Below, one piece after another: positions 3,616 through 39,273 of a stretch of DNA of 64,000 nt. Source of the DNA: Spiractinospora alimapuensis. Its GTDB lineage: Bacteria > Actinomycetota > Actinomycetes > Streptosporangiales > Streptosporangiaceae. A program made the translations under genes and the position numbers. The notes under the pieces are model-generated. The model saw only the letters and a program-made list of their open reading frames with translations. It made no database searches and was not told where the DNA came from. The stretch spans positions 1,550,001 through 1,614,000 of the forward strand of contig NZ_CP072467.1 in assembly GCF_018437505.1 (NCBI RefSeq), in the 5' to 3' direction. Position 1 is the first letter of the stretch. The number at the start of each line of letters is the position of its first letter.

Positions 3616-4863
3616 TCACGCGGGGGAACGCGCGACGTGGTTGAGCGCGAGCCAGTACGCGTCGTAGTTCCGCGGTTCGTGGGTCGGCGGCAGGCGCGTC
3701 ATTGGCCGGTTCAGGATCAGCGGCACGCGCTGCTCGGTGCGGCCGCCGTGGGATCGCAGTGGTTCGCGGAGTTGGGAGAGGTCATGGCGATCCTCCGCGG
3801 TACCGATGACGGTGTCCCGCTCCGCGAGCGCCACGAGCTCCCCGATGCGGTCCGGGGGGAGCTCGAAGGCCGCGGCCGCCTCTGCCCGACCGAGGACCTC
3901 GGCGACCCCCGGCGTCGACGCCAGGACCGACCGCGCCGCCGCGACGTCACCCGGCTCGGGAAGATGGATGGTGGCGAACGAACCAAGCGCCCCGTGGTGC
4001 ACGGTGTAGGGGTCGGTGATGGGGAGGACGACCCTGCTTCGCCCCTCCCCCAGGGCCTCGTCCAAGAGCCGTTGGGCGTAGACCACGTTGGGCCGCCCCT
4101 CCGCGTCGGACTTGCGGTTCATCCCGTGGTCCCCCGTCACCACCAACACCACGCCCAGGGCGTCGAGCTCCTGGAGGTAGCCGTCGAGCATGGCGTAGAA
4201 GTCGTTGGCGACCGGTGAGCCGGGGGCGTGCTTGTGCTGGATGTAGTCGGTCAACGACAGGTAGACGAGGTCGGGCCGGTCCCGCTCCATGAGCCGGACA
4301 CCGGCCGCCAGCACGAACTCGCTGAGGTCCGCACTGTAGACCTCCGGCTGGGGCAGGCCGACAAGGTCGAGGACCCGCTCGACACCGTTCTCGGCGAGGC
4401 TGGCCCGGGAGGCGTGCTCGGCGGAGAAACACACGCCGTCGCGGAGCCCCGCCCCGAGGAGCCGGCGCAGCTTGTCCTTCGCGGTGACCACGGCCACCCT
4501 CGCCCCGACTCGGGAGAACGCGGCGAACAGCGTGGGGCTACGAAGCAGCTCCGGACTGTTCATCATCACCTCCTCTCCTCGCTCGGCGTCATAGAAATAG
4601 TTGCCGCAGATCCCGTGGACGGCGGGCGGAGCCCCGGTGGCAATGGAGATGTTGTTGGGGTTGGTGAAGGATGGCATCGCCGACGTGGCCGTCCCCACCG
4701 ACCCTGCCTCGCTACCGGCGAGCCGCTCCAGATAGGGCATGCGGCCCGCCGCGATCGCTCGTTCGTGGTACGCGGGCTCGCTTCCGTCGACACACACCGC
4801 CACGACCGGCGTCTCGGGGAACGGGTACTCCCGTCCCGCGAGCGTCACTGGTTCGCCACCCAT
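3616..4863 (-). CDS. phnA: Phosphonoacetate hydrolase
   Basis: Alkaline-phosphatase-superfamily enzyme, 415 aa, that splits the C-P bond of phosphonoacetate to acetate and phosphate. Family-specific motifs are present: VVAVCVDGSEPAY (metal Asp), MPSFTNPNN with the nucleophile Thr, HGICGNYFYD, LTDYIQHKHAPG (Asp and His), VTGDHGMN (Asp-His) and SHGGRTEQRVP (late metal His). The combination of FTNPNN and HGICGN distinguishes it from nucleotide pyrophosphatases. The start at 4863 has AGGAAGGTG-type sequence just upstream; a longer frame to 4929 lacks conserved sequence. Co-oriented with the PhnY-like gene and divergent from the alcohol dehydrogenase. Confidence 0.88.
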   Translation of the reverse strand: MGGEPVTLAGREYPFPETPVVAVCVDGSEPAYHERAIAAGRMPYLERLAGSEAGSVGTATSAMPSFTNPNNISIATGAPPAVHGICGNYFYDAERGEEVMMNSPELLRSPTLFAAFSRVGARVAVVTAKDKLRRLLGAGLRDGVCFSAEHASRASLAENGVERVLDLVGLPQPEVYSADLSEFVLAAGVRLMERDRPDLVYLSLTDYIQHKHAPGSPVANDFYAMLDGYLQELDALGVVLVVTGDHGMNRKSDAEGRPNVVYAQRLLDEALGEGRSRVVLPITDPYTVHHGALGSFATIHLPEPGDVAAARSVLASTPGVAEVLGRAEAAAAFELPPDRIGELVALAERDTVIGTAEDRHDLSQLREPLRSHGGRTEQRVPLILNRPMTRLPPTHEPRNYDAYWLALNHVARSPA

Positions 4864-5321: not shown

Positions 5322-6407
5322 TTGTTGTCGGGTCGTCAGAACGCACACGCCGCCGTCTGGTACGGACACTCCGACGGTTTCCAGCAGCGCGAGGTCCCGA
5401 TTCCCGTTCCGGAGTCCCGCGAGGCCGTGGTCCGGGTTCGGGCCGCGACCATCTGTGGCAGCGACCTGCACAGCCTCCGCGGCGACCGGGAGGTTCCCAC
5501 ACCCACGATCCTGGGTCACGAGGCGGTCGGTGAGATCGTCGCGGCGGGGGCGAACGCCACGGCGCACGACGGGCGATCGCTGACCCTTGGCACCCGGGTC
5601 ACCTGGACCATCGGTACCGCCTGTGGCACCTGCCCCCGGTGTTCCCGTGGCATGGGCCAGAAGTGCGTCGGGGTGCGCAAGTACGGGCACGAGGCGGTCT
5701 CGCCGCGCTGGTTCCTCAATGGTGGCCTGGCCACCCACTGCCACCTGCTCCCGGACACCGGCGTCGTCGTGGTGCCGGCGGAGATCCCGGACCTGGTGGC
5801 GGCGCCCGCCAACTGCGCGACGAGCACCGTTGCCAACGCGCTGGCCGACGTCCGCAAGGGGGTGGTGCGCGCCGCGGTGGTCCAGGGATGCGGCATGCTC
5901 GGACTCACCGCCGTCGCCTGGCTGCACGAGCGCGGCGTGGAGACGATCGTGGCCTGCGACACCGACGAGGACCGCCGCGCGCACGCCGGGAGCTTCGGTG
6001 CGACCGCCGCCGTGTCGCCGGACGAGTTGTTCACGACCGTCGCCGACCACACCGGCGGCGAGGGCGCCGACCTCGTGATCGAGCTCTCGGGCAGCTCCGC
6101 GGCCGTGGCCGACTCGGTCGCCCTGTTGGCGATCGGAGGCACCCTGCGGCTGGTGGGATCCGTCTCCCCCAGCGCCCCCGTGGCGCTCCACGCGGAGGAC
6201 ATCGTGCGTCGGCTGCTCACCGTTCGCGGTACACACAACTACACGACACACGACCTCGTGCAGGCGGTTGCCTTCCTCGAACGTTCGCACGCCACTTACC
6301 CGTTCGCGTCGCTCGTCGGTCCACGGTTTCCCCTCACGGAGATCGACCGCGCGATCGGCCACGCCGAGACGCACCGTCCACCTCGCGTGGCGGTGCTCCC
6401 CGGCTGA
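5322..6407 (+). CDS. Phosphonate-catabolism-associated zinc alcohol dehydrogenase
   Basis: Medium-chain zinc dehydrogenase, 361 aa. It has the catalytic-zinc Cys motif ICGSDLHSLRGD, the second-shell motif GHEAVGEI, structural-zinc Cys residues (CGTCPRCSRGMGQKC) and a Rossmann core (VVQGCGMLGL). It matches the family described as putative phosphonate-catabolism-associated alcohol dehydrogenase (TIGR03366, from memory). Its position beside phnA and phnY supports this; the alcohol substrate is unknown but could be a hydroxyethylphosphonate-type compound. The start is a TTG with GAGGGA 9 bases upstream. Divergent from phnA. Confidence 0.78.
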   Translation: MLSGRQNAHAAVWYGHSDGFQQREVPIPVPESREAVVRVRAATICGSDLHSLRGDREVPTPTILGHEAVGEIVAAGANATAHDGRSLTLGTRVTWTIGTACGTCPRCSRGMGQKCVGVRKYGHEAVSPRWFLNGGLATHCHLLPDTGVVVVPAEIPDLVAAPANCATSTVANALADVRKGVVRAAVVQGCGMLGLTAVAWLHERGVETIVACDTDEDRRAHAGSFGATAAVSPDELFTTVADHTGGEGADLVIELSGSSAAVADSVALLAIGGTLRLVGSVSPSAPVALHAEDIVRRLLTVRGTHNYTTHDLVQAVAFLERSHATYPFASLVGPRFPLTEIDRAIGHAETHRPPRVAVLPG

Positions 6408-6502: not shown

Positions 6503-7228
6503 GTGAACGTGACGCGAGAACCGGGAAGCCGCCCGGCGGGGCCCGAGGTCGCGCTGTTGCCGGTGGGCAGCCAGGAACAACACGGTCCACACCTTCCGCT
6601 GGACACCGACACGCTGATCGCCACCACCGTCGCCGAGGAGCTCGCGCGGGCCTATTCCGTTCGTCTGCTGCCCCCGATCGCCTACTCCTGTTCGCACGAG
6701 CACGACGCCTGGCCCGGCACGGTGAGCATCTCCGCGACCACGCTGTCCGCGCTCGTCTCCGACATCGCCGCTTCCCTCCGCCGGGCGGGGACGTCACGAC
6801 TGGTCCTCGTGAACGGCCACGGGGGAAACTACGTCCTGGGCAACGTGGTACAGGAGTCATCCGGCCGCATGGCGCTGTTCCCCGGTGTCGCCGAGTGGGA
6901 GGCCGCACGGCGCACGGCCGGGGTGGAGACCTCGGGCGAGGTCGACATGCACGCCGGGGAACTGGAGACGTCACTCCTCCTGCACGCACGCCCCGACGTG
7001 GTGGCGCGCGGGTTCGAGGCCCGCGACGAACTCACCGGGGACCGACCGCATCTGCTCACTCGTGGCCTCGCCGCCTACAGCGCCTCCGGAGTCGTCGGGC
7101 GTCCCTCACTCGCCTCGGCCAACAAGGGCCGCCTCGTGCTGGGAGACCTGGTCCGGTCCTTCTCCGGCCACCTCACCGCGCTGGGTGTCACATCCCCGGT
7201 TCCGGGTGAGCACGCGCCGGAACAGTAG
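6503..7228 (+). CDS. Creatininase-family amidohydrolase (possible formamide hydrolase)
   Basis: Creatininase-fold metal hydrolase, 241 aa. Ligand motifs are complete: GSQEQHGPHLPLDTD near the N-terminus, SHEHDAWPGT, NGHGGN and DMHAGELETS. The family includes creatininase, mycofactocin MftE and archaeal ArfB, which deformylates the pyrimidine FAPy made by GTP cyclohydrolases. No other mycofactocin gene is nearby, while a GTP cyclohydrolase II paralogue lies 6.4 kb downstream in the same gene cluster, so an ArfB-like role is the better inference. Its 3' end overlaps the convergent flippase-like gene by 123 bases. It is probably expressed from its own promoter (see 6491). Confidence 0.82.
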   Translation: MNVTREPGSRPAGPEVALLPVGSQEQHGPHLPLDTDTLIATTVAEELARAYSVRLLPPIAYSCSHEHDAWPGTVSISATTLSALVSDIAASLRRAGTSRLVLVNGHGGNYVLGNVVQESSGRMALFPGVAEWEAARRTAGVETSGEVDMHAGELETSLLLHARPDVVARGFEARDELTGDRPHLLTRGLAAYSASGVVGRPSLASANKGRLVLGDLVRSFSGHLTALGVTSPVPGEHAPEQ

Positions 7229-8131
7229 GACACCCAGCCCGGGGAGACTCGCGACGAACGCCAAGGCGCCGTAGGTGACCGCGGTCGCGAACCCGAGCTC
7301 CGGGGCGAGACCGACCGCGCCGAAGGCGAGGACCGCCGCGGCCTCCCGCGGCCCCCAGCCGGCGACGTTCACCGGGATCGACATCGCCACCAACGCCAGG
7401 ACCGCGATCGGCAGCACGAACGACGCCGGGGTCCGCGGGGTGGCCACCCCCGCCGCGACCAGGAACAGCGCGACGTGTCCCCCAATGGCCGCGACCGACA
7501 GGAAGAGCACGATGGGGCCGGTACGGCGCCCGAACAGCGCGACGCGCGCGTCGGCCAGGGCGACGCGCGTCTGGTGGCGTGCTCTCCCCCACCACTCCAG
7601 GTGGCGTACCGGCGAGCGCACGAGACTGAGAACGAGGAACGTCAGGACGGCGACCGCCGTCGCGCCGAGAGCGAGGGCGGGGAGAGCGCTCGAGGTGAGC
7701 TGGGCGAGGGAGAACGGCAGGACGAGCAGGACCGTCGCACCGACCACCAGTAGCACCGCCTGTCCGGCGACCCGCTCCAGCACCACCGCGCGGGCCGCCG
7801 GGCCGTACGCCCCGGACTCCCGGCCGTGACACGCCGCCCGGTGCACGTCACCGAGTACTCCGGCCGGCAGTACGGCGTTGAGGAACACGGCACGGTAGTA
7901 GTCCGCGACCGCGACCCGCATCGGGAGTGGCACCCCTACCGCGGCCGCGACGACGCGCCACCTCCACGCACACAACACGGTCGTGGCCAGCCCGATCCCC
8001 AACGCGGCCACCACGGCCCTCAGGTCCACCGCGGCCAAGGCGGCGACGGCGGCATGTGGTCGGACCTGCCACGCCAACGCCCCGAGTACGGCCAGACCGC
8101 CGCCGACCCGAATGACCCGCCGCCACGGCAT
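7106..8131 (-). CDS. Lysylphosphatidylglycerol-synthase-TM/flippase-like membrane protein
   Basis: Polytopic membrane protein of the UPF0104/LPG_synthase_TM type, about 341 aa with roughly eight hydrophobic segments. Conserved features include the FLNAVLPAGVLGDVHRA loop, the VLERVAGQ segment and the NVAGWGPREAA motif near the C-terminus. Relatives occur as the membrane half of MprF or next to glycosyltransferases, where lipid flipping or lipid-linked sugar handling is proposed. The start is uncertain (ATG 8131; a GTG lies just upstream). The tail after about residue 300 is hydrophilic and overlaps the creatininase gene on the other strand. It probably belongs to the pterin-like cluster. Confidence 0.78.
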   Translation of the reverse strand: MPWRRVIRVGGGLAVLGALAWQVRPHAAVAALAAVDLRAVVAALGIGLATTVLCAWRWRVVAAAVGVPLPMRVAVADYYRAVFLNAVLPAGVLGDVHRAACHGRESGAYGPAARAVVLERVAGQAVLLVVGATVLLVLPFSLAQLTSSALPALALGATAVAVLTFLVLSLVRSPVRHLEWWGRARHQTRVALADARVALFGRRTGPIVLFLSVAAIGGHVALFLVAAGVATPRTPASFVLPIAVLALVAMSIPVNVAGWGPREAAAVLAFGAVGLAPELGFATAVTYGALAFVASLPGLGVLLFRRVLTRNRGCDTQRGEVAGEGPDQVSQHEAALVGRGE

Positions 8132-9424
8132 CGTCACGACACCACCGGGGAAGCGGCTCGCCGCTTCCCGACGACATCCGGCCGGAAGGAGCCTCTCGAT
8201 CCGCGGTGGAGCGAGCCCACAACACCCACGCCCCCGTCCGTTCCCCGTTCGTTGGGCGGCCACGACCCATCCACGTCCATCGCGCCGACCCGCGCGCCAC
8301 GGTCCAACGACCGAACACACTCTCGACCCACCCCGCCGCCCGGGAACCCCGAGTACCCCAAGGCGGAGCTGGGCCAGGTCCGTAGCGCTCGGCACACCGC
8401 ACGGCGCGCTCCACACCACCGTCGAGGCGACGCTCCGCGCCGCCTTCTTACTCGACGGCCGGCGGCGTCACGACTGGTCCACCGCCCTCGCTCGAATGGT
8501 GGCGCCGCGAACACCGTCCGGCCACCACTCCCCGGGACCGTCACGGCCTCGTAGTCGATCACAACCTGGTCGTGTTCCTTCCGTGCTGTGTCTCTCTGGA
8601 GGCGCTGTCGGGGGCGTTCGGAGCTCGTGACCGTCAGGACGGCGATCGCCGCGTCGATCCTCTCGAACAGCCGACCAGGACGCCCCGCACGGATCGTCCT
8701 GCGTGACGACGCCCGAGCCCCCGCTCGGGCGTCGTCACGGAGCCGCCCCCGTAGCGGCGACGCCCTCTCCCTCATCCGAAAACCCGCAAAAACACTTCCC
8801 AGCCCCACGGGCCAGGACCGGACGAACAACGTTGCCGCACCGTCGCGCGGCGACCGACTTCGGAGTGCACGAGCAATCCCCGACAGACCGACGCTGGAGA
8901 AGCGGATCTCCCTCATGCGTCTCCGATCGCGTCAACCAAGAGAACAGTCATCTTTACGTTGTAGATCAACAAAGGGTTGCCGGAGGACCGCCGCCGGATC
9001 GAGGGCTCGGTCCACCAGCGCGCCCCACGCGGTCCTCCTCGACCTGATCCTGGGTTTCGACACTGCTCCGGCCGTGCGGGTGCGGGACCGGTTGGGCGTT
9101 CCGGGTTCTCCGCGAGGAATCGGAACGCGTCACACGCCCACGTCCCAGGAGCCGTCCGTCGACCGGTTCCGGGCCTGGTCCCCCACGCGGCAGCGGTACT
9201 CCCGCACGAGAGAGGCGCCGTCAGCACGTCGACACCCATTCCGCGCTCGTTCGAGGAACGTCCGCCGACCGCGTCGGTCGGTGCTCTCGCCGACGCGGCG
9301 TGGGCTTCGGTCTCTCGGAAGCGGTGACGGTGCCCGGTTCCCCGTCCCGCCACGGGGAACCGCACCACGTCGCCCCGTGGGCCGATGGGGTAGGCCACGG
9401 GTATCCGCGTGGGCCGCCCCGGAT
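8132..9424. other. 1.3-kb intergenic stretch without a convincing gene
   Basis: All six frames here translate to Arg/Pro/Ser-rich sequence with no recognisable domain and poor codon pattern. This is unusually long for the compact cluster around it. It contains the strong hairpin at 8702-8739 and an AT-rich pocket around 8940-8985. The hairpin may end the methyltransferase operon, and the rest may carry the promoter of the flippase-like gene or the decayed remains of a lost gene. Confidence 0.5.
8702..8739. terminator. 17-bp perfect hairpin, probable terminator
   Basis: CGTGACGACGCCCGAGC (8702-8718) is the exact reverse complement of 8723-8739, with a 4-base CCCC loop. There is no T-run, as is common for actinobacterial terminators. 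It lies about 690 bases beyond the methyltransferase stop. Confidence 0.6.
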
Positions 9425-10267
9425 TCACCCGCGCTCCGTGGGCAGAGCCAGCAGGTCCTCGTGGTCGATCACCGCCCGGAGGGTGCCCTGCCGGATGGCG
9501 TGCATTCTCTGGCTGAGGTAGTCGCGACTGGGCGGGATCAGGCGAGGACACTGGTCCAGGGCGGCTCCGACCCAGCCGTGGAGCCACTGCGACAGGAGTA
9601 TGTGGTCACCGTTTCCCAGATTCCACGGGCTGGGACGGCGGAGGACGGTCAGGCCGTGACCCTGGAGGGCTCGTGCCGCGACGAGCGGCGCGTCAGGGCC
9701 AAGGAGGGTGCGTCCCGCGGTGGTGCGTCGTTGGTGGGCGTCGAACGCCGCCGCGAATGTGGAGTCCAGGGCGTGCGGCGGGGTGAGCTCGACCCGGCCG
9801 GTCACACTGAGGCTCCACAGCACCGCGCACCGCGCGGCGGCGCAGGCTCGGGCGAGGGCGGCCACCTCCCCGTGGGTCAGCAGGTCGAGCACCGCCGACC
9901 CGGTGACGAGAGCGGCGCCGGCGAAGTCCCCGGCCTCCAGCCGCGTGAGGTCGCCGCGCCAGGTCTCCACGGTGACGGGGCTGCCGTCGGCACAGACCGA
10001 GGACTCGTCGCCGGGGGCGTCCCGGCTCGCCTCCGCGAGGAGTCGGGGGTCGCTGTCGTGCAGCACCCAGTGCTGTGGTCCGGGCAACCTTCGGGCGAGC
10101 CAGCGCCGCATGGACCCCGTGCCAGCGCCGATGTCGTGGATCTCCAGCGGCCCCGAATGTTGGGCGAGGTGGGTGGCGAGGGGCTCCAGCAGGGAGCGGG
10201 CCCGCGCAGCGCCGTCGGCCACCTCCCGGGCCGCCAGCCAGTCGGGCGGGAACTCACCCGTACTCAC
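9425..10267 (-). CDS. SAM-dependent methyltransferase
   Basis: Class I methyltransferase, 280 aa. Motif I is IHDIGAGTGSM and the acidic residue after the second strand is in VLHDSDPRLL. The GTG start at 10267 overlaps the stop of the glycosyltransferase in a GTGA overlap, so it is the last translationally coupled gene of the ribA-paralogue operon. The substrate cannot be read from sequence; the position suggests it modifies the product of the cluster. The C-terminal third contains the family-typical WNLGNGDHILLSQWLHGWV stretch. Confidence 0.82.
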   Translation of the reverse strand: MSTGEFPPDWLAAREVADGAARARSLLEPLATHLAQHSGPLEIHDIGAGTGSMRRWLARRLPGPQHWVLHDSDPRLLAEASRDAPGDESSVCADGSPVTVETWRGDLTRLEAGDFAGAALVTGSAVLDLLTHGEVAALARACAAARCAVLWSLSVTGRVELTPPHALDSTFAAAFDAHQRRTTAGRTLLGPDAPLVAARALQGHGLTVLRRPSPWNLGNGDHILLSQWLHGWVGAALDQCPRLIPPSRDYLSQRMHAIRQGTLRAVIDHEDLLALPTERG

Positions 10268-11307
10268 CCCGCACGTGTCCGCTCCAACGCTGCCACCATG
10301 CATCGCGCGGTCTCCCCCCATCCGCTCAGCGTGGTCCGCCGCGACGTCGCCGCCCGACGCAGCCGCCGCCGCGTGTCCACTTCTGTCAACCACATCCGCA
10401 AGGCGCTGGTCAGCGCGCCGACCTCGCCCGGCGGCACTAGAATCCCCGGAACTCCGCCCTCGGTAACCTCGCCGAGGGTGTTCGGTAGCGCCCCTCCGGT
10501 CGTCGTGAGCACCGGAATCGCGCGGGCCAGCGCCTCGGTCACCACCATCGCGTAGGTCTCGGTGTGCGACGGAAGCACTGCGAGATCGGTGTGGTGGTAG
10601 ATCTCGGCGAGCTCGGTGGCGGACCTCGGACCGAGGAGACGGACCCGATCGGTGAGCGCCGAGCGACGAATCGTGGACCGCAGCGCGTCGGCGAACCGGG
10701 CATCGCGCTCGTCCGGTCCGACCAGCAGGCACTCCCAGTCCAGGTCCCGCAGCCGCGCGAGGGCCGCGATCAGCGTGTCCTGCCCCTTTCGTGGGGTCAG
10801 CGCGGCGACGCAGACGAGCCGCGTCCCCGTGGTGGTTCCCGCGGCCACGGGGGCAGGATCGGTGCCGGGCGCGGCGACGTGGATCCGGGACTCGGGGAGG
10901 AGGTGGCGGGCACGCAGATGCTCCGCCGCCCACTGGCTCGTGGCGACGACCGTCGGCACGGCGCGCAGGACTCGACGCTCGCGAGCGTCACGCCGTCTCG
11001 CCTCCTCGGGAGCCAGTCCCGTCTCCTCCGCGAGTGGGAGATGCACCAGCACGGCGATCCGCAGCCGTCTCGTGTGGGGCAGCACGACCCCTGGGGTCCC
11101 GCAGGCCACGAGGCCGTCCATCAGGACCGTGGCACCGTCCGCGACGGAGCCGAGCGTCTCGTCGAGTCGGGCCCGCGCGTCGTCGTCCGGACACGGCCAG
11201 GGCCCCGCGACCGCCGCCTCCTGGACGCTGAGCCCGCGTCGCCGAAGCTCGTCGCACACCCGCCGGTCGTAGACGTTGCCGCCGCTGGGGAACGAAGGAT
11301 CGTCCAC
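10264..11307 (-). CDS. GT4-family glycosyltransferase (apparent frameshift at N-terminus)
   Basis: GT-B fold glycosyltransferase, 347 aa from the GTG at 11307. The donor-binding domain is clear: VCVAALTPRKGQDTLI, LLVGPDERDARF, and the acidic motif in LPSHTETYAMVVTEALA. The frame lacks the first beta strand normally found before DDPSFPSGGNVYDRR. That missing piece, [13 protein letters not shown]-like sequence, is present just upstream in another frame, beginning with a GTG at 11347 that overlaps the PTPS stop as GTGA. The intact gene therefore probably spanned 10264-11347, with an indel near 11311. The sugar donor and acceptor are unknown. Confidence 0.8.
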   Translation of the reverse strand: MDDPSFPSGGNVYDRRVCDELRRRGLSVQEAAVAGPWPCPDDDARARLDETLGSVADGATVLMDGLVACGTPGVVLPHTRRLRIAVLVHLPLAEETGLAPEEARRRDARERRVLRAVPTVVATSQWAAEHLRARHLLPESRIHVAAPGTDPAPVAAGTTTGTRLVCVAALTPRKGQDTLIAALARLRDLDWECLLVGPDERDARFADALRSTIRRSALTDRVRLLGPRSATELAEIYHHTDLAVLPSHTETYAMVVTEALARAIPVLTTTGGALPNTLGEVTEGGVPGILVPPGEVGALTSALRMWLTEVDTRRRLRRAATSRRTTLSGWGETARCMVAALERTRAG

Positions 11308-11343
11308 GTCCAGGGAGGACCAGGACTGGCGGTGGCTGGGGTC

Positions 11344-11742
11344 TCACAGGGCCCGCTCGTAGCTCGCCCACGCGACGTGCGACTCGTGCAGGGTGACGGT
11401 GAGCCCGACGAGTCCGCGTGCCTCCTCGCCGAGGGCTCCGCTGTGGACCCGCTCGGCCATCCGGTCGGCGACGACGCGGGCGAGATACTCCGTGGTCGTG
11501 TTCACGCCCCTGAAGGCGGGATCCTCGTCCAGGTTGCGGTAGTTGAGCGCGGCGAGGATTTCGGTCAGGGCCGCGGACGCCCGACCGATGTCCACGACCA
11601 GGTTGTCCCGGTCGAGTTCCTCACGCCGAAAGGTCGCGTCCACGATGAAGGTCGCGCCGTGGAGCCCTCGCGCGGGGCCGAAGGTCTCGCCGTGGAAACT
11701 GTGGGCGACCATCATGTGGTCGCGAACGGTGAGCGCGAACAT
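11344..11742 (-). CDS. 6-pyruvoyltetrahydropterin synthase (PTPS/QueD) homologue lacking catalytic residues
   Basis: T-fold protein, 132 aa, full length for the family. The pterin-anchoring Glu survives (LHESHVAW), and H14, H17 and H28 are present. The normal HGH zinc pair reads HGA (A30), and there is no Cys anywhere, so the catalytic Cys is absent. This matches what I recall for the Streptomyces coelicolor homologue SCO6650, whose structure was reported to lack zinc and the catalytic triad but keep a pterin-like pocket. It should therefore bind a pterin-like or pyrimidine compound but not do the classical reaction. It starts 15 bases after the MDR stop. Confidence 0.85.
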
Positions 11743-11757
11743 GGTGACTCCTGTGGG

Positions 11758-12780
11758 TTACGTCGAGGGATAGACGATGCGGTGGCAGAGCGTCGCCGCG
11801 GCGTCCACGTCGGGTGGTGCCGCCGAGGGGTGCCCGCCGGGTGGCGGTGTTGGGCCGGCGATCCGCGCCATGACCGCGGGCAACTCCGCGAACGCGCTCT
11901 CGCCGGAGAAGAGCGCGTCGAACGCCGGGTCGGCGAGCAGGCGGAGAGCCAGGGCACGGCGGTCGTTCGCGGTGCGGGTCGAACTCCGCGCGGGTGCGAC
12001 GGTGCCCACCTGGCTGGCCCGGAGTCCCAGACGGCGGGAATGGAACTCCTCCCCCAGCGCCGCCTGGACACCCGCCGTCCCGTACCAGCTCAGCTCCAGG
12101 ACCTCCCGGTCGGCGGCGAGGAGGCGCAAGGACGTCTCCAGTCCCGCGCCGGTGCCGCTGGTGTGCACCACCAGGTCACAGCCACGGGTCGCCTCGTCGG
12201 GGGGCGCGAATCGTGCTCCCATCGCCTCGGCCGTCGCGGCGCGGGACGGATCGACGTCGACCAGCTCGATGTCGACACCAGGGATCCGCGCGAGCAGGCG
12301 TGCGACACAGCAGCCCACCATGCCGGCGCCCACAACCGCGACGCGGTCGCCGAGCCGCGGCGCCCCGTCCCACAACGCGTTCACCGCGGTCTCCACCGTT
12401 CCCGCGAGCACGGCACGGTGGGCCGGCACGTTCTCGGGCACTGGGAGGACCGCGTGGCGGGGAACGGTGTAACGCGTCTGGTGAGGGTAGAGGCAGAAGA
12501 CGTCGCGCCCCACGAGCGCGTCCGGCCCGCGCTCAACCACACCAACACTGAGGTAGCCGTACTTGACCGGGCCAGGGAACTCGCCCTCCTGGAACGGGCA
12601 CCGCATCACCTCGCGCTGGCTCGCGGGGACCAGACCATGGAAGACCAGCGTCTCGGTGCCGCGGCTCACCGCGGAGAACCTCGTGCGCACCAGGACCTCG
12701 TCCGTGGTGGGCGGTGGGACCGACACCGGACGGATCTCGCACGTCCGAGGTGCCGTCAGCCAGAGTGCCTGCGCTCGCAT
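11758..12780 (-). CDS. MDR-superfamily dehydrogenase without catalytic zinc ligands
   Basis: Medium-chain dehydrogenase/reductase, 340 aa, with a Rossmann motif VAVVGAGMVGCCVAR and an acidic nucleotide-ribose position in ELVDVDPSRA. The usual catalytic Cys motif (CGxD) is replaced by FSAVSRGTETLVFHG, so a canonical zinc alcohol dehydrogenase reaction is unlikely; BchC-like members have similar RGTE sequences. It probably reduces or oxidises an intermediate in the cluster. The ATG at 12780 lies inside the 3' part of the preceding CDP-alcohol phosphatidyltransferase frame. Confidence 0.82.
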   Translation of the reverse strand: MRAQALWLTAPRTCEIRPVSVPPPTTDEVLVRTRFSAVSRGTETLVFHGLVPASQREVMRCPFQEGEFPGPVKYGYLSVGVVERGPDALVGRDVFCLYPHQTRYTVPRHAVLPVPENVPAHRAVLAGTVETAVNALWDGAPRLGDRVAVVGAGMVGCCVARLLARIPGVDIELVDVDPSRAATAEAMGARFAPPDEATRGCDLVVHTSGTGAGLETSLRLLAADREVLELSWYGTAGVQAALGEEFHSRRLGLRASQVGTVAPARSSTRTANDRRALALRLLADPAFDALFSGESAFAELPAVMARIAGPTPPPGGHPSAAPPDVDAAATLCHRIVYPST

Positions 12781-13591
12781 CCGTCTCCCTCACGATGTTC
12801 CGCTCCGTGCCATCTCCCCGCACCTCTCGTGGCGCCCTGGACGCGGCGACGACCGGGTGCGGGGACACGTGTCGCGCGGCGTGACGGAGCCCATGGACGT
12901 CCCGAGCGAACGACCAGGTCAGCGCGCATAGCGCCACCGCCAGGACACCGACCGCGACGGGTCCGGGGAACAGCGTGGAGCTCACCACGACCAGGGCGAC
13001 GCCCTGGGCGACGGCGACCGTCTTCCGGGCCTGGCTCGGGGGTAGGGCGCCCCCCAGCCACGGCCACCACGCCGACGCCGCCGCGAACACGTAGCGCATG
13101 CCGCCGATCGCGAGCACCCACCACCCGTACGCCTGCGCGACGTGCACGCTCAACACCAGGATCAGCAGCGCGTCGATCTCCATGTCGAACCGCGCGCCCC
13201 GTTCCGACACCGCCCCGGTCCGCCGGGCCAGCGCGCCGTCCACAGCGTCCAACGACAACGCGGTGGCCGCCAGGGCGACGAGGAGGGTCACGTCGACCAC
13301 GCCCGCGGCGCCGTCCGCCACGAGGACCGCTATCCCCCCGACCAACACCGCGCGGGTGAGGGTCACTCGGTCCGCCCCGGTGGCGGGCCCGGGGTCGTAC
13401 CGCCGCAGTACGGCCCACAGCAGTGGTGCGCCCACGAGCGCGTAGGTCAGACCGGTGAGCCATCCGGCCAGACCGACGCCGAGGGTCGCCCAGAACACGA
13501 GGACGAGGACGAGCGTCAGCCACGCCGCACCGGCGACGCTGTGCCACAGTGGTCGCCCGGTCACGACGGTCCGGGGCATCCGGTCACCCAT
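12533..13591 (-). CDS. CDP-alcohol phosphatidyltransferase
   Basis: Membrane enzyme with the family signature D-AVDGALARR...G-ARFD-MEID, matching DG(x)2AR(x)8G(x)3D(x)3D. Several hydrophobic segments flank it. The family transfers a phosphoalcohol between a CDP-activated alcohol and a hydroxyl acceptor, making phospholipids or soluble phosphodiesters. The start at 13591 overlaps the ribA-paralogue stop by 8 bases (ATG 13579 is an alternative). The natural end should fall near residue 270. Instead the frame continues 82 residues into the MDR gene with Arg/Gly/Pro-rich sequence, suggesting a lost stop or small indel. The true 3' end is uncertain. Confidence 0.8.
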   Translation of the reverse strand: MGDRMPRTVVTGRPLWHSVAGAAWLTLVLVLVFWATLGVGLAGWLTGLTYALVGAPLLWAVLRRYDPGPATGADRVTLTRAVLVGGIAVLVADGAAGVVDVTLLVALAATALSLDAVDGALARRTGAVSERGARFDMEIDALLILVLSVHVAQAYGWWVLAIGGMRYVFAAASAWWPWLGGALPPSQARKTVAVAQGVALVVVSSTLFPGPVAVGVLAVALCALTWSFARDVHGLRHAARHVSPHPVVAASRAPREVRGDGTERNIVRETDASAGTLADGTSDVRDPSGVGPTAHHGRGPGAHEVLRGEPRHRDAGLPWSGPREPARGDAVPVPGGRVPWPGQVRLPQCWCG

Positions 13592-14264
13592 GGCGTCGCC
13601 CCGCGTTCCGCGCCGACGCGCCGTCGCCCAGGTGCGGCACCGGAACACCGTTCAGGTGGGGCAGGTCGTGACCGAGCCGGTCCCGCTTGGCGGTCAGGTA
13701 GCCGATGTTGCGGTCGTGCACGGGCACCAACAGGGGCATTCGCCCGGCCACCCTGGTGCCGTACCGGGTGAGCGCGGCGACCTTGTCGGGGTTGTTGGAC
13801 ATCAGCCGCACGGACCTCACCCCCAGGTAACTGAGCGCACGGGCCGCCGGTCCGTAGTCACGAGTGTCGACCGGCAGGTCCAGCGCCGTCGCCGAGTCAA
13901 CCGTGTCCAGGCCGAGCCCGTCCTGCAGCGTGTGCGTGCGCACCTTCGCCAGCAGACCGATGCCGCGCCCCTCGTGCCCACGCAGGTACACGACGACGCC
14001 CCGCCCCGCGTCGACGATGGCGTCCAGCGCGGCCCGCAACTGCTCCCCACACTCGCAGCGCAAGGCACCGAAGACGTCACCCGTGAGGCACTCCGAGTGC
14101 ACACGGACCGCGACGTCCTCCACCCCGTCCACCTCCCCGAGGACGAGCGCGAGATGCTCCTGGCCGTCCAGCGGATCCCGAAACGCCACCGCGCGATACA
14201 CGGCCTGCCGGGTCGCCAGTTCCGACTCGGCGACCTCGCGTGGATCGATCGCGTGCTCGTGCAT
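13584..14264 (-). CDS. GTP cyclohydrolase II paralogue with His in place of the active-site Tyr
   Basis: RibA-type protein, 226 aa. The zinc Cys residues are C59, C70 and C72 (HSECLTGDVFGALRCECG) and the catalytic-loop motif is HEGRGIGL. The conserved Tyr of E. coli RibA (KIRAYALQ, Tyr105) is His111 here (KVRTHTLQ). In Streptomyces coelicolor SCO6655 the same Tyr is Met, and that enzyme was reported to stop at the formylated pyrimidine FAPy. By analogy this is likely a FAPy-forming enzyme and not a riboflavin one. First gene of the leftward operon. The start at 14264 has a GGGG/GGAC-rich ribosome site. Confidence 0.88.
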   Translation of the reverse strand: MHEHAIDPREVAESELATRQAVYRAVAFRDPLDGQEHLALVLGEVDGVEDVAVRVHSECLTGDVFGALRCECGEQLRAALDAIVDAGRGVVVYLRGHEGRGIGLLAKVRTHTLQDGLGLDTVDSATALDLPVDTRDYGPAARALSYLGVRSVRLMSNNPDKVAALTRYGTRVAGRMPLLVPVHDRNIGYLTAKRDRLGHDLPHLNGVPVPHLGDGASARNAGRRHG

Positions 14265-14436
14265 CTCGTCCCCTGCCCCTCCGTGATCACGTTCCAGTAC
14301 GAACGCTGGTCCCACTCCCCGATCGGCCCCCGACCCGGGGTGCGCCCTCGACGGGCGCCACCCCCTGCGTGCCCTCGGCCACACAGGGGTACTACCCGCA
14401 GACACAGGACACGGTTCCTCCTGGTCAGCGGTTCGT

Positions 14437-14461
14437 GATATCCTGTTTGAGACACGATATT
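14437..14461. promoter_or_regulatory. 25-bp inverted repeat, candidate TetR operator
   Basis: The arms 14437-14448 and 14450-14461 match at 9 of 12 positions around a single central base (GATATCCTGTTT and AATATCGTGTCT). The site lies between the divergent ribA paralogue and the TetR gene. It overlaps candidate boxes for both directions: TTGAGA-17-TAGATC rightward and TTGGAA-17-GATATC leftward. TetR proteins usually bind such sites in their own divergent promoters, so control of the whole operon is likely. Confidence 0.5.
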
Positions 14462-14513
14462 CCAAGTTTTAGATCCTTGGTCCCAACTGTACATCCCTCA
14501 GGAAGGTCAGGAA

Positions 14514-15377
14514 ATGCAGGGTGGCGAAGCCCCGGACAGTGGTCTGACGCGCGCACGACGCCGACTGTCGGACCAGGAGACGGAGCAGCGCATGCTGCGG
14601 TCCGCGATGGCGATGGTGCACGAGAACGGGCTCACGGTGAGCCTGGACCACATCAGCTTCGAGGACGTGATTCGCGTCGCGGGCGTCTCACGCAGCGCGG
14701 TCTACCGGCGCTGGCCACACAAGGAGTCGTTCTTCCGTGAACTCGTCAAGGAGCTCGCGCGCGGGGACACCCCGGACATCGGGGCGATGAACCCGGCGGC
14801 GACCGACGCGGTGCGTCGCACGATCCTGGACCACCTGGACTGGTTGCGGACCCCCGACGGACGCGTGTCGCTGATCGGCGAGATCCTCCGCAACGGAGCG
14901 CGCGACGAGTTCGGCACGTTCCTCGGATCGCCCCAGTGGCGCACCTACATCGCGCTGCACGCGACGTTCCTCAGCCTGCCAGCGGGTGACTTCCGAGAGG
15001 AGGTGCGTGGCGCACTCGGGCAGTCGCAGCGACGACTCATCGACGGCGTGGCGACGTTCCACGCCGCGGTCATGGACATCGTCGGCGTCAGACTCCGCCC
15101 CGAGACCGGTGCCACCTACACCACACTCGCCGAACTGGGCACCGCGTTGATGCGGGGGCTCGTGGTGATGGCCGCCTCGACGCCCCACATCGGCACCGAC
15201 CGCGTGGACGCCGCGCCCTTCGGCGCACGCCGCACCGCCGAGTGGTCCAACCCCGGACTCGGACTCGCGGCTCTGGCGACGAGCCTGTTGGAGGCCGACC
15301 CCGAGGTCACCTTCGACGAGGAGCACCTCGCCCACACTCGGAAACGACTCGCGGTGGGCACCGGCCCTTTCTGGTGA
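14514..15377 (+). CDS. TetR-family transcriptional regulator
   Basis: Regulator of 287 aa. The N-terminal helix-turn-helix is visible at about residues 22-75, with the recognition helix in VAGVSRSAVYRRWPHKESFF. The remainder is the variable ligand-binding domain. It is divergent from the GTP cyclohydrolase II paralogue, with the inverted repeat at 14437-14461 between them, so it probably represses or tunes that operon in response to a pathway-related ligand. The ATG has AGGAAGGTCAGGAA just upstream. It converges with the AtoE-like gene. Confidence 0.88.
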   Translation: MQGGEAPDSGLTRARRRLSDQETEQRMLRSAMAMVHENGLTVSLDHISFEDVIRVAGVSRSAVYRRWPHKESFFRELVKELARGDTPDIGAMNPAATDAVRRTILDHLDWLRTPDGRVSLIGEILRNGARDEFGTFLGSPQWRTYIALHATFLSLPAGDFREEVRGALGQSQRRLIDGVATFHAAVMDIVGVRLRPETGATYTTLAELGTALMRGLVVMAASTPHIGTDRVDAAPFGARRTAEWSNPGLGLAALATSLLEADPEVTFDEEHLAHTRKRLAVGTGPFW

Positions 15378-17392: not shown

Positions 17393-18283
17393 TCACCGCG
17401 CCGACGCGCCGCGTTCCCCCTCGAACCAGCGCCGCAGCCGCGTCACGATCGCCCGCAACGCCCCGCCGCGCACACACTCCCTCAACGCCGCGTCGTCGAA
17501 CCGTCGCCTTTGGACGAACGCGACGGCGAGGCGGGCCGCGTCCGCCACGGGAGCGTCGTCGAGGTCGGGACCGGACGGGACCCACGGTGTCACGCGGATC
17601 CAGCTCCTCCAGTCGAACACCAGGTCCTTCACCAAGGCACCCACGAGCGCGAGGATCTCGTCGCCCCGTTCGAGGTCCTTGGGCTCGTCGTCACCCGCGA
17701 CCTCGAACAGCCGGCGCCACCGATGAACCGGCTGGGCGGCCAGGCCAGCGGCGATCGTGGCGTCGTCGGGACCGGTTCCCCGCAGTGCGTCCCCGAACAC
17801 CGCGAGCGCGTCCTCGTCGAACAGAACGAAACGTCGATCGGTGACACTTGCGGGGGTGAATCGCACCGCCGCGGTGGCCAGCCGCGCCGCGTCGTCCATC
17901 GGCCACCGATACACGCCGGTGGAGATGGCCGGGAAGGCGATACTGCCCGCACCGAGTTCGTCGGCGAGGCGGAGGGCAGACGTATAGCAGGACAGTAGCT
18001 GGCCGGACCGGTCCTCCGTCGGGGAGTGGACTGGGCCCACGGTGTGGATCACCCATCGGGCGTTGAGGTCACCCGCGGTCGTGACCGCCGCCTCTCCGGT
18101 CGGAAGTCCGGCCTGGAACCGCCGGTTCCGCAGGTCGCGGCACTCCGCCAGGATCCTGGGTCCCCCGGCCCGGTGGATCGCGCCGTCCACCCCTCCGCCA
18201 CCCAGCAGCGTGGAGTTGGCGGCGTTCACGATTACGTCGGCGTACTGCCGGGTGATATCGCCGTGGTGCAGGGTGACGTTCAT
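17393..18283 (-). CDS. Macrodomain protein fused to a DUF6508-like domain
   Basis: Two-domain protein, 296 aa. Residues 1-170 form a macrodomain of the O-acetyl-ADP-ribose deacetylase/MacroD type: GDITRQYADVIVNAANSTLLGGGGVDGAIHRAGG, here split for reading as GDITRQ, VNAANS and GGGGVDGAIH, plus IAFPAISTGVY. It should bind or remove ADP-ribose. Residues about 185-296 resemble DUF6508 as I remember it: FDWRSWIRVTPW, then VQRRRFDDAALRECVRGGAL and a final RLRRWFEG. The fusion suggests a role in ADP-ribose signalling or stress; its partner is unknown. Confidence 0.85.
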   Translation of the reverse strand: MNVTLHHGDITRQYADVIVNAANSTLLGGGGVDGAIHRAGGPRILAECRDLRNRRFQAGLPTGEAAVTTAGDLNARWVIHTVGPVHSPTEDRSGQLLSCYTSALRLADELGAGSIAFPAISTGVYRWPMDDAARLATAAVRFTPASVTDRRFVLFDEDALAVFGDALRGTGPDDATIAAGLAAQPVHRWRRLFEVAGDDEPKDLERGDEILALVGALVKDLVFDWRSWIRVTPWVPSGPDLDDAPVADAARLAVAFVQRRRFDDAALRECVRGGALRAIVTRLRRWFEGERGASAR

Positions 18284-38116: not shown

Positions 38117-38575
38117 TCACGCCTCGTGCAGGAGATGGGTGTTCGGTCGTCGCGCGGCCGCGGCGAGCTCTCCTCGTCGTACGGTCTCGACTCCGGCGGC
38201 GCGCAGCCGCTCCGCGCCGCTGGCGGGCACGAAGACCGGCGGCTCGGACCAGGCGTAGACGACACGGTGGACCCCGGCGGCGATGATCCGTTCCGCGCAC
38301 GGACGCGGGCGGGAGGCGCGCGCGCCGCACGGCTCCAAGGAGCTGTAGAGGGTGGCGTCAGAGAGGTCCGCTCCAGGTGGGAGCCGCTCCAGCGCCACCT
38401 CCTCAGCATGGTCGTGGGGGTCACGTTGGCGCGAGTACCCCTCCGCCAGGACCTGGCCGTTCCCCGAGACGATGACACATCCCACAGAGAAAGCCGTGGT
38501 CGACGGAGGACACTCCCACGCGAGACCCACCGCGCGACGGAGCCACCGGTCGTCGGTGTCCGCCGACGGAGTCAC
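38117..38575 (-). CDS. RibD-type deaminase domain protein
   Basis: Zinc cytidine-deaminase-fold protein, 152 aa. The zinc motifs are HAEEVALE and PCGARASRPRPC, with the RibD-like opening DDRWLRRAVGLAWECPPS. In riboflavin synthesis the RibD N-terminal half deaminates the diaminopyrimidine ribityl/ribosyl phosphate. Here it is a separate gene, overlapping the reductase gene by ATGA. It could serve riboflavin synthesis or act on a pyrimidine in a related pathway. Confidence 0.85.
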   Translation of the reverse strand: MTPSADTDDRWLRRAVGLAWECPPSTTAFSVGCVIVSGNGQVLAEGYSRQRDPHDHAEEVALERLPPGADLSDATLYSSLEPCGARASRPRPCAERIIAAGVHRVVYAWSEPPVFVPASGAERLRAAGVETVRRGELAAAARRPNTHLLHEA

Positions 38576-39273
38576 CGTGACGCGCCCGAGAGAAGGTAGT
38601 GCAGCGCGATCACGCCGTCGAGGTCCTCCGAGCCGACCAGGGTCATCGGGGTGATGGCCGTGTGCGGGAAGAAACCTGGGTGTACGAACCGCGGCGCGTC
38701 GGCGTCACCGACGAAGAACGGGGCCACGGCCAACCGCAGCTCGTCGACCAGCCCGGCGGTGAGGAACCCGGTGTGCACCTTCCCGCCTCCCTCGACGATC
38801 AACCGGTAGAGGCCACGGCGTGCGAGGTCCGCGACCACGAATCCGAGATCCAGGGGATCGCCCGCGTCGATGACCGTGACGTCGTCGTTGCCCGCCAGAC
38901 GCGCGCCGGTGTCGAAGAAGGCGGGTGAGGCGGCGTAGACGAGCTTGGGCGAGTCACCGGTAGTGAAGAACTCCGCGTTGGGGTCGACGTCACCGCTGGT
39001 GGTCAGCGTGACCTTGGTGAGGTCACCAGGCTTTCCCTCCTCTGTGCGGCGGTCACGGCGTTCGGTCGATCGCAACAGGAGGCGCGGATTGTCCCGACGT
39101 ATGGTCTCCGCACCGACCAGGATCGCGTCGCATCCCGCCCGAATCTCGTCGACGCGATCGAAGTCGGCGTCGGATGACAGGCGAAGGCGATGATCCGTGG
39201 CGTCGTCTATGTATCCGTCCACGGACATCGCGCAGCTGAGAATGGTGTACGGCCGCTCCAGGGGTGCGCTCAT
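38572..39273 (-). CDS. RibD C-terminal/dihydrofolate-reductase-like reductase
   Basis: 233 aa with the bacterial bifunctional deaminase-reductase C-terminal fold. Motifs are CAMSVDGYIDDATDHRLRLS, AILVGAETIRRDNPRLL and LIVEGGGKVHTGFL (NADPH site). It reduces the ribosyl side chain of the pyrimidine intermediate in riboflavin synthesis. It is translationally coupled to the deaminase. The start at 39273 is where similarity begins; upstream sequence is not conserved. No other rib gene lies beside it. Confidence 0.85.
   Translation of the reverse strand: MSAPLERPYTILSCAMSVDGYIDDATDHRLRLSSDADFDRVDEIRAGCDAILVGAETIRRDNPRLLLRSTERRDRRTEEGKPGDLTKVTLTTSGDVDPNAEFFTTGDSPKLVYAASPAFFDTGARLAGNDDVTVIDAGDPLDLGFVVADLARRGLYRLIVEGGGKVHTGFLTAGLVDELRLAVAPFFVGDADAPRFVHPGFFPHTAITPMTLVGSEDLDGVIALHYLLSGASR

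Follow-up and report, generated by a model that had tools for sequence, protein, structure and literature searches.

We analysed a 64,000-nt stretch of contig NZ_CP072467.1 from Spiractinospora alimapuensis (hereafter the window), in which a GTP cyclohydrolase II (GCH II) paralogue, a PTPS homologue and their neighbours form an orphan cluster of the already known SCO6650/PTPS-IV type. Comparison with related loci shows that one GCH II lineage mostly goes with a creatininase-family amidohydrolase and the other with an ArfC-like reductase. From sequence comparison, we give roughly even chances to the reading that this actinobacterial cluster repeats the first half of riboflavin synthesis with enzymes of its own and diverts the pyrimidine elsewhere. 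What appears to be new is the pattern relating the creatininase to a switch residue of GCH II, together with the existence of two alternative pyrimidine modules. The two window genes at the centre of the comparison are:

13584-14264, reverse strand: GTP cyclohydrolase II paralogue, PF00925 198.6 bits (cut-off 23.3)
6503-7228, forward strand: creatininase-family amidohydrolase, predicted FAPy formamidase, PF02633 207.7 bits

Gene families were called with Pfam and NCBIfam profiles, and bits were compared with the cut-off of each model. These profiles confirmed the genes that the initial annotation had assigned, by family and position, to this region, and a second PF00925 gene in the genome (C1:1124010) bore out its claim that the GCH II is a paralogue. 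The window GCH II conserves the core residues of the family and three cysteines (C60, C71, and C73), which we take to be the zinc ligands. A switch position, equivalent to E. coli Tyr105 and S. coelicolor SCO6655 Met120, presumably decides between FAPy and the deformylated product; SCO6655 reportedly yields FAPy, through Met120. When aligned to M. tuberculosis RibBA (4i14), the window enzyme has a His at this position (VRTHTLQD), and Tyr is found both in 4i14 and in the RibBA of the same genome (L132). Judging from this residue, FAPy is the predicted product of the window GCH II.

The switch position was scored in 54 distinct GCH IIs from loci holding an MDR dehydrogenase or a PTPS gene, the window included; this count omits the duplicates L059, L113 and L118 and five Tyr rows without MDR or PTPS. 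Tyr was present in 29 of these enzymes, and the other 25 carried H, M, L, I or Q (non-Tyr). Met occurred in L070, L084, L115 and L128, which fits the Met120 reported for SCO6655. A creatininase scoring above 150 bits was found in 21/25 non-Tyr loci and in 0/29 Tyr loci, with one Tyr locus (L045) bearing a creatininase of 96 bits only. A looser count raises the non-Tyr figure to 23/25 by adding L061, where the gene is split in two frames, and L091, where it was recovered by a scan of open reading frames; the remaining two loci (L058 and L080) are cut by the end of the contig or flank before a creatininase could show. The ArfC-like reductase is distributed the other way round, in 26/29 Tyr loci and 1/25 non-Tyr loci. 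That single non-Tyr locus, L115, has both partners, along with PTPS, GCH II, a RibD-type deaminase and an LtaS-like gene.

In a maximum likelihood tree of 59 rows, GCH IIs split into two groups of 27 and 32 rows (support 100/100 each), so the same cluster type is served by two GCH II lineages. The non-Tyr enzymes sit on one branch (90/89) inside the 27-row group, which also holds the RibBA of the window's genome, and the 32-row group comprises the other Tyr enzymes. The replacement of one GCH II lineage by another is the best evidence that the pathway starts from GTP. Pairs of a Tyr-type GCH II and an ArfC-like reductase were also seen in genomes G022 and G057 (L129:9017-9595, L130:8999-9793, and L131:7944-10545), with no PTPS gene within the 20 kb fetched; these pairs can be read as a stand-alone ribityl-pyrimidine module.

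The window creatininase keeps the EQHG, NGHGGN and HAGExETS motifs, which we assume to form the metal site; among the rows listed, NGHxGN is found in 23/24, HAGExETS in 21/24 and EQHG in 20/21. Its sequence and context lead us to predict a FAPy formamidase, an activity that was shown experimentally for a bacterial member of the family, BrbF, according to passages of PMC9478397. The best NCBIfam match is nevertheless MftE (150.1 bits), so that the enzyme could serve a peptide pathway, mycofactocin, and stand here by chance. We hold this to be very unlikely: the score is under the cut-off of 172, on which ground we rejected the MftE identity, and the creatininase pairs with non-Tyr GCH IIs. Moreover, in a kinship sample of 60 related genomes (own included), 10 have a creatininase homologue of at least 240 bits and 8 of these, counting our own, carry PTPS-IV; in the other 7 of these 8, both genes share a contig and are no more than 5 kb apart.

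The other features of the cluster, with a candidate operator and a distant reductase gene, are as follows:

14514-15377, forward strand: TetR-type regulator, divergent from the operon, PF00440 24.1 bits (cut-off 24)
14446-14454, reverse strand: candidate operator core TGTCTCAAA, in the gap between the TetR and GCH II genes
12533-13591, reverse strand: CDP-alcohol phosphatidyltransferase, PF01066 (CDP-OH_P_transf) 40 bits
11758-12780, reverse strand: BchC-like MDR dehydrogenase, best NCBIfam model BchC at 52.8 bits, far under its cut-off of 291.25
11344-11742, reverse strand: PTPS-IV homologue, SCO6650 orthologue, PF01242 84.5 bits
10264-11307, reverse strand: GT4 glycosyltransferase, PF00534/PF13692, 87 bits
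9425-10267, reverse strand: class I SAM methyltransferase, Pfam 20.8 bits, under the cut-off of 27
7106-about 8137, reverse strand: flippase-like LPG_synthase_TM membrane protein, PF03706 102 bits
38572-39273, reverse strand: ArfC-like RibD_C pyrimidine reductase, 24 kb from the cluster

Related loci were obtained from a contig scan with the MDR protein, keeping the best 80 of 190 confirmed among the candidates; loci were picked by MDR closeness, and the gene fractions are conditional on MDR. Genes were called with a simple codon-position caller that misses some (the L091 creatininase and the window CDP-alcohol gene, for instance). By title, nearly all loci belong to Actinomycetota, from Nocardiopsis and Streptomyces through metagenome-assembled genomes (MAGs) of Thermoleophilia; L052 is labelled as a Burkholderiaceae MAG and could be misbinned. 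Among these best 80 loci, PTPS was found in 80, GT4 in 75, the CDP-alcohol transferase in 69, LPG_synthase_TM in 67, the methyltransferase in 51, GCH II in 49 (in L049 as a 28-bit fragment only), creatininase in 21 (L045 with only 96 bits) and TetR in 4 (L034 with only 25 bits). In the 47 loci with full flanks, the figures were 47 for PTPS, 45 each for GT4 and LPG_synthase_TM, 43 for the CDP-alcohol transferase, 34 for GCH II, 33 for the methyltransferase, 23 for a membrane protein that we call F7, 22 for the ArfC-like reductase and 18 for creatininase (among which that of L045 is weak and lies about 8 kb from the cluster). The GT4, LPG_synthase_TM and CDP-alcohol genes usually stand in a single gene run with the core.

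In the kinship sample, 15 genomes have a close PTPS (>130 bits). At least two GCH II genes were present in 12/15 of them vs 3/45 of those without (the second copy not always being linked), a close creatininase (at least 240 bits) in 8/15 vs 2/45, and an ArfC-like homologue (E at most 1e-30) in 14/15 vs 22/45. Co-occurrence exceeds chance by Fisher tests on the 60 genomes, uncorrected for descent, and in the related loci the genes are tightly linked. The initial annotation had staked its proposal on these genes occurring together, and across Actinomycetota they do.

The PTPS of the window is orthologous to S. coelicolor SCO6650 (PDB 3d7j, 218 bits), which is said to lack zinc, the catalytic triad and PTPS activity, and no other PF01242 gene was found in the genome. 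HGAT replaces the HGH zinc motif in 81/81 rows, and the Asp-His catalytic pair, at its QueD position, was seen in 0/81. Conservation reaches 97% or more for H14, H28, the C-terminal Glu (E120) and the FGPA signature of PTPS-IV, which is followed by Q in 73/81 rows and by R in 8, the window included. Canonical PTPS/QueD zinc motifs are given as CxxxHGH, CxxxxxHGH and ExxHGH in passages of PMC5041015. Hence the family assignment made at first was right, yet the protein is non-canonical, and ordinary PTPS chemistry is therefore not to be assumed. Membership in the PTPS/QueD family could also point to a 7-deazapurine or queuosine-type route via QueD. This route is the most improbable of those considered, and was rejected on the QueD score (36 vs a cut-off of 89.25) and the HGA for HGH replacement; in addition, the cluster has GCH II instead of GCH I, and inspection of the 40 commonest gene groups by eye showed neither QueE nor QueC.

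The MDR protein carries GAGMVGCC in 81/81 rows and has no close relative among solved structures. MDR, PTPS and reductase genes occur without GT4, LPG_synthase_TM or CDP-alcohol genes in L063 and L068, and MDR and PTPS alone in L124. The core is thus separable, and the glycosyl, methyl and phospho-alcohol genes look either like tailoring genes for what the core makes or like a second pathway. In the latter case, two products would be made at one locus: a soluble pterin or pyrimidine cofactor or pigment from MDR, PTPS, reductase and GCH II, and an unrelated envelope lipid or polymer from GT4, CDP-alcohol transferase, LPG_synthase_TM and LtaS-like proteins. The three loci just named speak for such a split, and so do the GCH II-reductase pairs away from PTPS in L129-L131. 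It is countered by the near constancy of GT4, LPG_synthase_TM and CDP-alcohol transferase genes in full-flank loci, mostly in one gene run, and we consider two products a serious though rather unlikely alternative to a single tailored one. Two Streptomyces loci, L063 (12128-15383) and L068 (12163-15463), have the genes for MDR, PTPS and reductase and then those for a Trypco2 protein (PF19631, by a scan of L063) and for a protein of 972/992 aa that by eye is trypsin-NTPase-repeat-like; these neighbours resemble a conflict system.

The ArfC-like RibD_C reductase is found in 38/80 loci. TIGR01508 was the best NCBIfam model in the three reductases scanned, under its cut-off, and the same holds for the window gene at 38572-39273, which matches the L074 cluster reductase with 249 bits. 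Its presence in 22/45 genomes without PTPS makes this gene unspecific, and we did not count it as a cluster member; it is a possible supplier of the reduction step. Phosphatase candidates occur in some relatives: an IMPase-family gene stands beside or near GCH II in 5 loci and in 5/20 extra stretches (two of which repeat named loci), and a HAD-family gene is present in 5 loci. An IMPase adjoining GCH II was discarded for the window, whose genome has only homologues of 34-38% identity. Further methyltransferases are also found in relatives.

F7 (about 500-570 aa unfused) is encoded in 41 loci, and in 21/41 it is fused to the CDP-alcohol transferase. The one F7 protein scanned had no Pfam or NCBIfam match. 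Its structural model (pLDDT 80.3) has LtaP/LtaS as best solved matches (for LtaP, Foldseek E 6.8e-9; TM 0.36 by query and 0.47 by target length), and E256, T299, H416, D487 and H488, presumably metal and catalytic residues by LtaS numbering, show no variation across 18 rows. A search for F7 in the window's genome, which had no positive control, gave no match.

GCH II, creatininase, deaminase and ArfC-like reductase all come from enzyme families of riboflavin or F420-precursor synthesis, so the cluster might simply boost precursor supply for these cofactors in late growth, with no new product. A link between PTPS-IV and F420 synthesis is indeed mentioned in passages of PMC5041015, citing unpublished work. 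Yet no lumazine synthase, riboflavin synthase or F420 gene was recognised by eye, without a profile search, among the 40 commonest groups, and the constant PTPS, MDR, GT4, methyltransferase and CDP-alcohol genes are not known to have a role in the riboflavin pathway. We therefore find a mere supply function improbable, and retain the diversion of the pyrimidine to another product as our working reading.

The divergent TetR gene with an operator candidate, reported in the initial annotation, has orthologues at the same location in L059, L086, L089/L113 and L116. The window holds a single copy of the operator core TGTCTCAAA, and 5/5 loci with an orthologous TetR (4 distinct, as L113 repeats L089) have it at the corresponding position, compared with 1 match in 3,334,738 strand-bases of other loci (L021 onward). 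A TetR repressor probably controls the operon here. In S. coelicolor, passages of PMC2853524 list SCO6655 as anticorrelated with the predicted riboflavin flux (r -0.61). In that cultivation stationary phase was triggered by phosphate depletion, and most, not all, listed genes are said to rise in it. SCO6652 changes by log2 +0.8, +4.3 and +4.1 at 24, 48 and 72 h compared to early mycelium, according to passages of PMC3610822; from the order of PTPS, GT4 and methyltransferase genes in L070 and L084, we infer that SCO6652 is the methyltransferase. Together, these are hints that the S. coelicolor counterpart is expressed in late growth and at aerial and spore stages.

The pathway that we propose would run in five steps. 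The paralogous GCH II without the switch Tyr probably opens GTP to FAPy 5'-phosphate, and the creatininase-family enzyme would then probably release formate, leaving the diamino-ribosylaminopyrimidinone phosphate. Sister clusters would need a single enzyme for both steps, a Tyr-type GCH II that mostly belongs to the other lineage. An ArfC-like reductase and a phosphatase (IMPase or HAD in some relatives) would then plausibly yield a ribityl-diaminopyrimidine; the reductase gene is usually near a Tyr-type GCH II, and the window's genome possibly encodes one elsewhere. More tentatively, PTPS-IV might act with the BchC-like MDR to form a pterin-like unit; this non-canonical protein lacks the zinc and catalytic set and retains the C-terminal Glu, the presumed substrate anchor. 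Finally, GT4, methyltransferase and CDP-alcohol transferase might add a sugar, a methyl and a phospho-alcohol, with the membrane protein perhaps moving the product across the membrane. The first module, from GTP to a diaminopyrimidine that is probably ribitylated, is well supported by the sequence comparison; the tailoring tail and any lipid product we infer, a lipid being one of two live options. The broad GTP to pyrimidine or pterin pathway drawn at the outset is partly supported.

Several observations weigh against this reading. Because the non-Tyr GCH IIs form one branch, their correlation with creatininase may reflect a single event, and the Fisher value for switch residue and creatininase is uncorrected for descent. 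A Tyr-type cluster enzyme on a long branch (L056) falls in the 27-row group, not in the second one. The creatininase is below every equivalog cut-off (ArfB: 36.6 vs 180 bits); the role of FAPy deformylase given to it in the initial annotation gains support from the switch-residue pattern and the BrbF precedent. Links between genes are also imperfect: a close creatininase occurs without PTPS-IV in 2/10 genomes (G016 and G052), L032 and L037 (Sciscionella) have the cluster creatininase without a linked GCH II, and a linked GCH II is absent from 13/47 full-flank loci. A linked gene for a reductase, a phosphatase or an LtaS-like enzyme was looked for in the window's own cluster without success. 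Last, the list of anticorrelated genes also contains the paralogue SCO2687 (r -0.52, in passages of PMC2853524); the flux correlation therefore does not single out SCO6655, and this expression clue is weak.

The PTPS-IV and SCO6650/SCO6655 proteins have a solved structure and reportedly an odd enzyme activity, but no pathway for them came up in our search. Taken together, the gene set, the switch pattern and the alternative modules define a pathway with an explicit order of steps that is open to simple assays in S. coelicolor, made more testable by the FAPy/creatininase step, the module of Tyr-type GCH II and ArfC-like reductase, and the LtaS-like fusion. One can go further and imagine an unrecognised membrane or surface molecule, in which a GTP-derived ribityl-pyrimidine or pterin, glycosylated and methylated, would be borne on a phospho-alcohol lipid or teichoic-like chain and made in late growth, aerial hyphae or spores, with new chemistry on a zinc-less PTPS fold and two interchangeable GCH II modules. 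This full picture is speculative and, taken as a whole, more probably wrong than right by a wide measure; if true, a pterin-bearing envelope lipid would be a new chemical class across much of a phylum.

Some features of the window locus deserve mention. The methyltransferase, under its Pfam cut-off, has an AlphaFold2 model of pLDDT 93.6 whose structural matches are SAM methyltransferases, and 2/3 relatives tested exceed the cut-off. The CDP-alcohol transferase has the DxxDGxxAR...GxxxDxxxD motif, and the 12 commonest variants of each motif half (among 70 rows) fit it. Its frame covers the first 248 bases of the MDR gene (12533-12780) in a different frame, and the median length of the unfused protein is 243 aa in relatives; a real overlap, a lost stop or a sequence error are the alternatives. 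The 3' end of the LPG_synthase_TM gene overlaps the creatininase gene. Between 8140 and 9424, about 1.3 kb of an otherwise tight operon are without a called gene, and the idea of a decayed gene there was rejected, since tblastn with the genes called in related loci gave no match either. A zinc alcohol dehydrogenase gene beside the creatininase (5322-6407, forward strand) was the best match of no open reading frame in the 80 loci and was excluded from the cluster. About 1.7 kb from the creatininase lies a type I phosphodiesterase/nucleotide pyrophosphatase gene (3616-4848, PF01663), and 17393-18283 encodes a macro-domain protein fused to DUF6508.

Our search of the literature, which covered paper listings and passages of selected, mainly open papers, found no description of this pathway or product. 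The closest system is the SCO6650-SCO6655 region of S. coelicolor, alike through its orthologous PTPS (3d7j), with a gene-by-gene identity that is presumed; the window GCH II differs in having His at the switch, where SCO6655 reportedly has Met, and the TetR/operator arrangement of the window is seen in few relatives only. The FGPA signature places the PTPS in the PTPS-IV subfamily of COG0720, whose neighbourhood with PF00925 and RibD_C is described in passages of PMC5445326. The initial annotation had called the system undescribed; as a neighbourhood it was thus already in print, and the SCO6650 structure was solved. Both partners are found across our loci (GCH II in 49/80, ArfC-like in 38/80), and in the window only GCH II adjoins. 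Those passages of PMC5445326 name PF00925 GTP cyclohydrolase I/FolE2, unlike Pfam here (GTP cyclohydrolase II), and make no mention of creatininase, MDR, GT4, CDP-alcohol or LtaS-like genes. The F7 proteins of relatives appear akin to LtaS/LtaP synthases by model match and invariant residues, and differ in the lack of a Pfam/NCBIfam match for the one scanned and in their frequent fusion to the CDP-alcohol transferase. As for the first half of riboflavin synthesis in its archaeal or BrbF style, the cluster differs in that no lumazine or riboflavin synthase was recognised by eye among the 40 commonest linked gene groups and that neither its creatininase nor its reductase reaches the cut-off of the respective model (ArfB, TIGR01508); it is alike in the opening of GTP, in a separate formamidase family and in a separate ArfC-like reductase.

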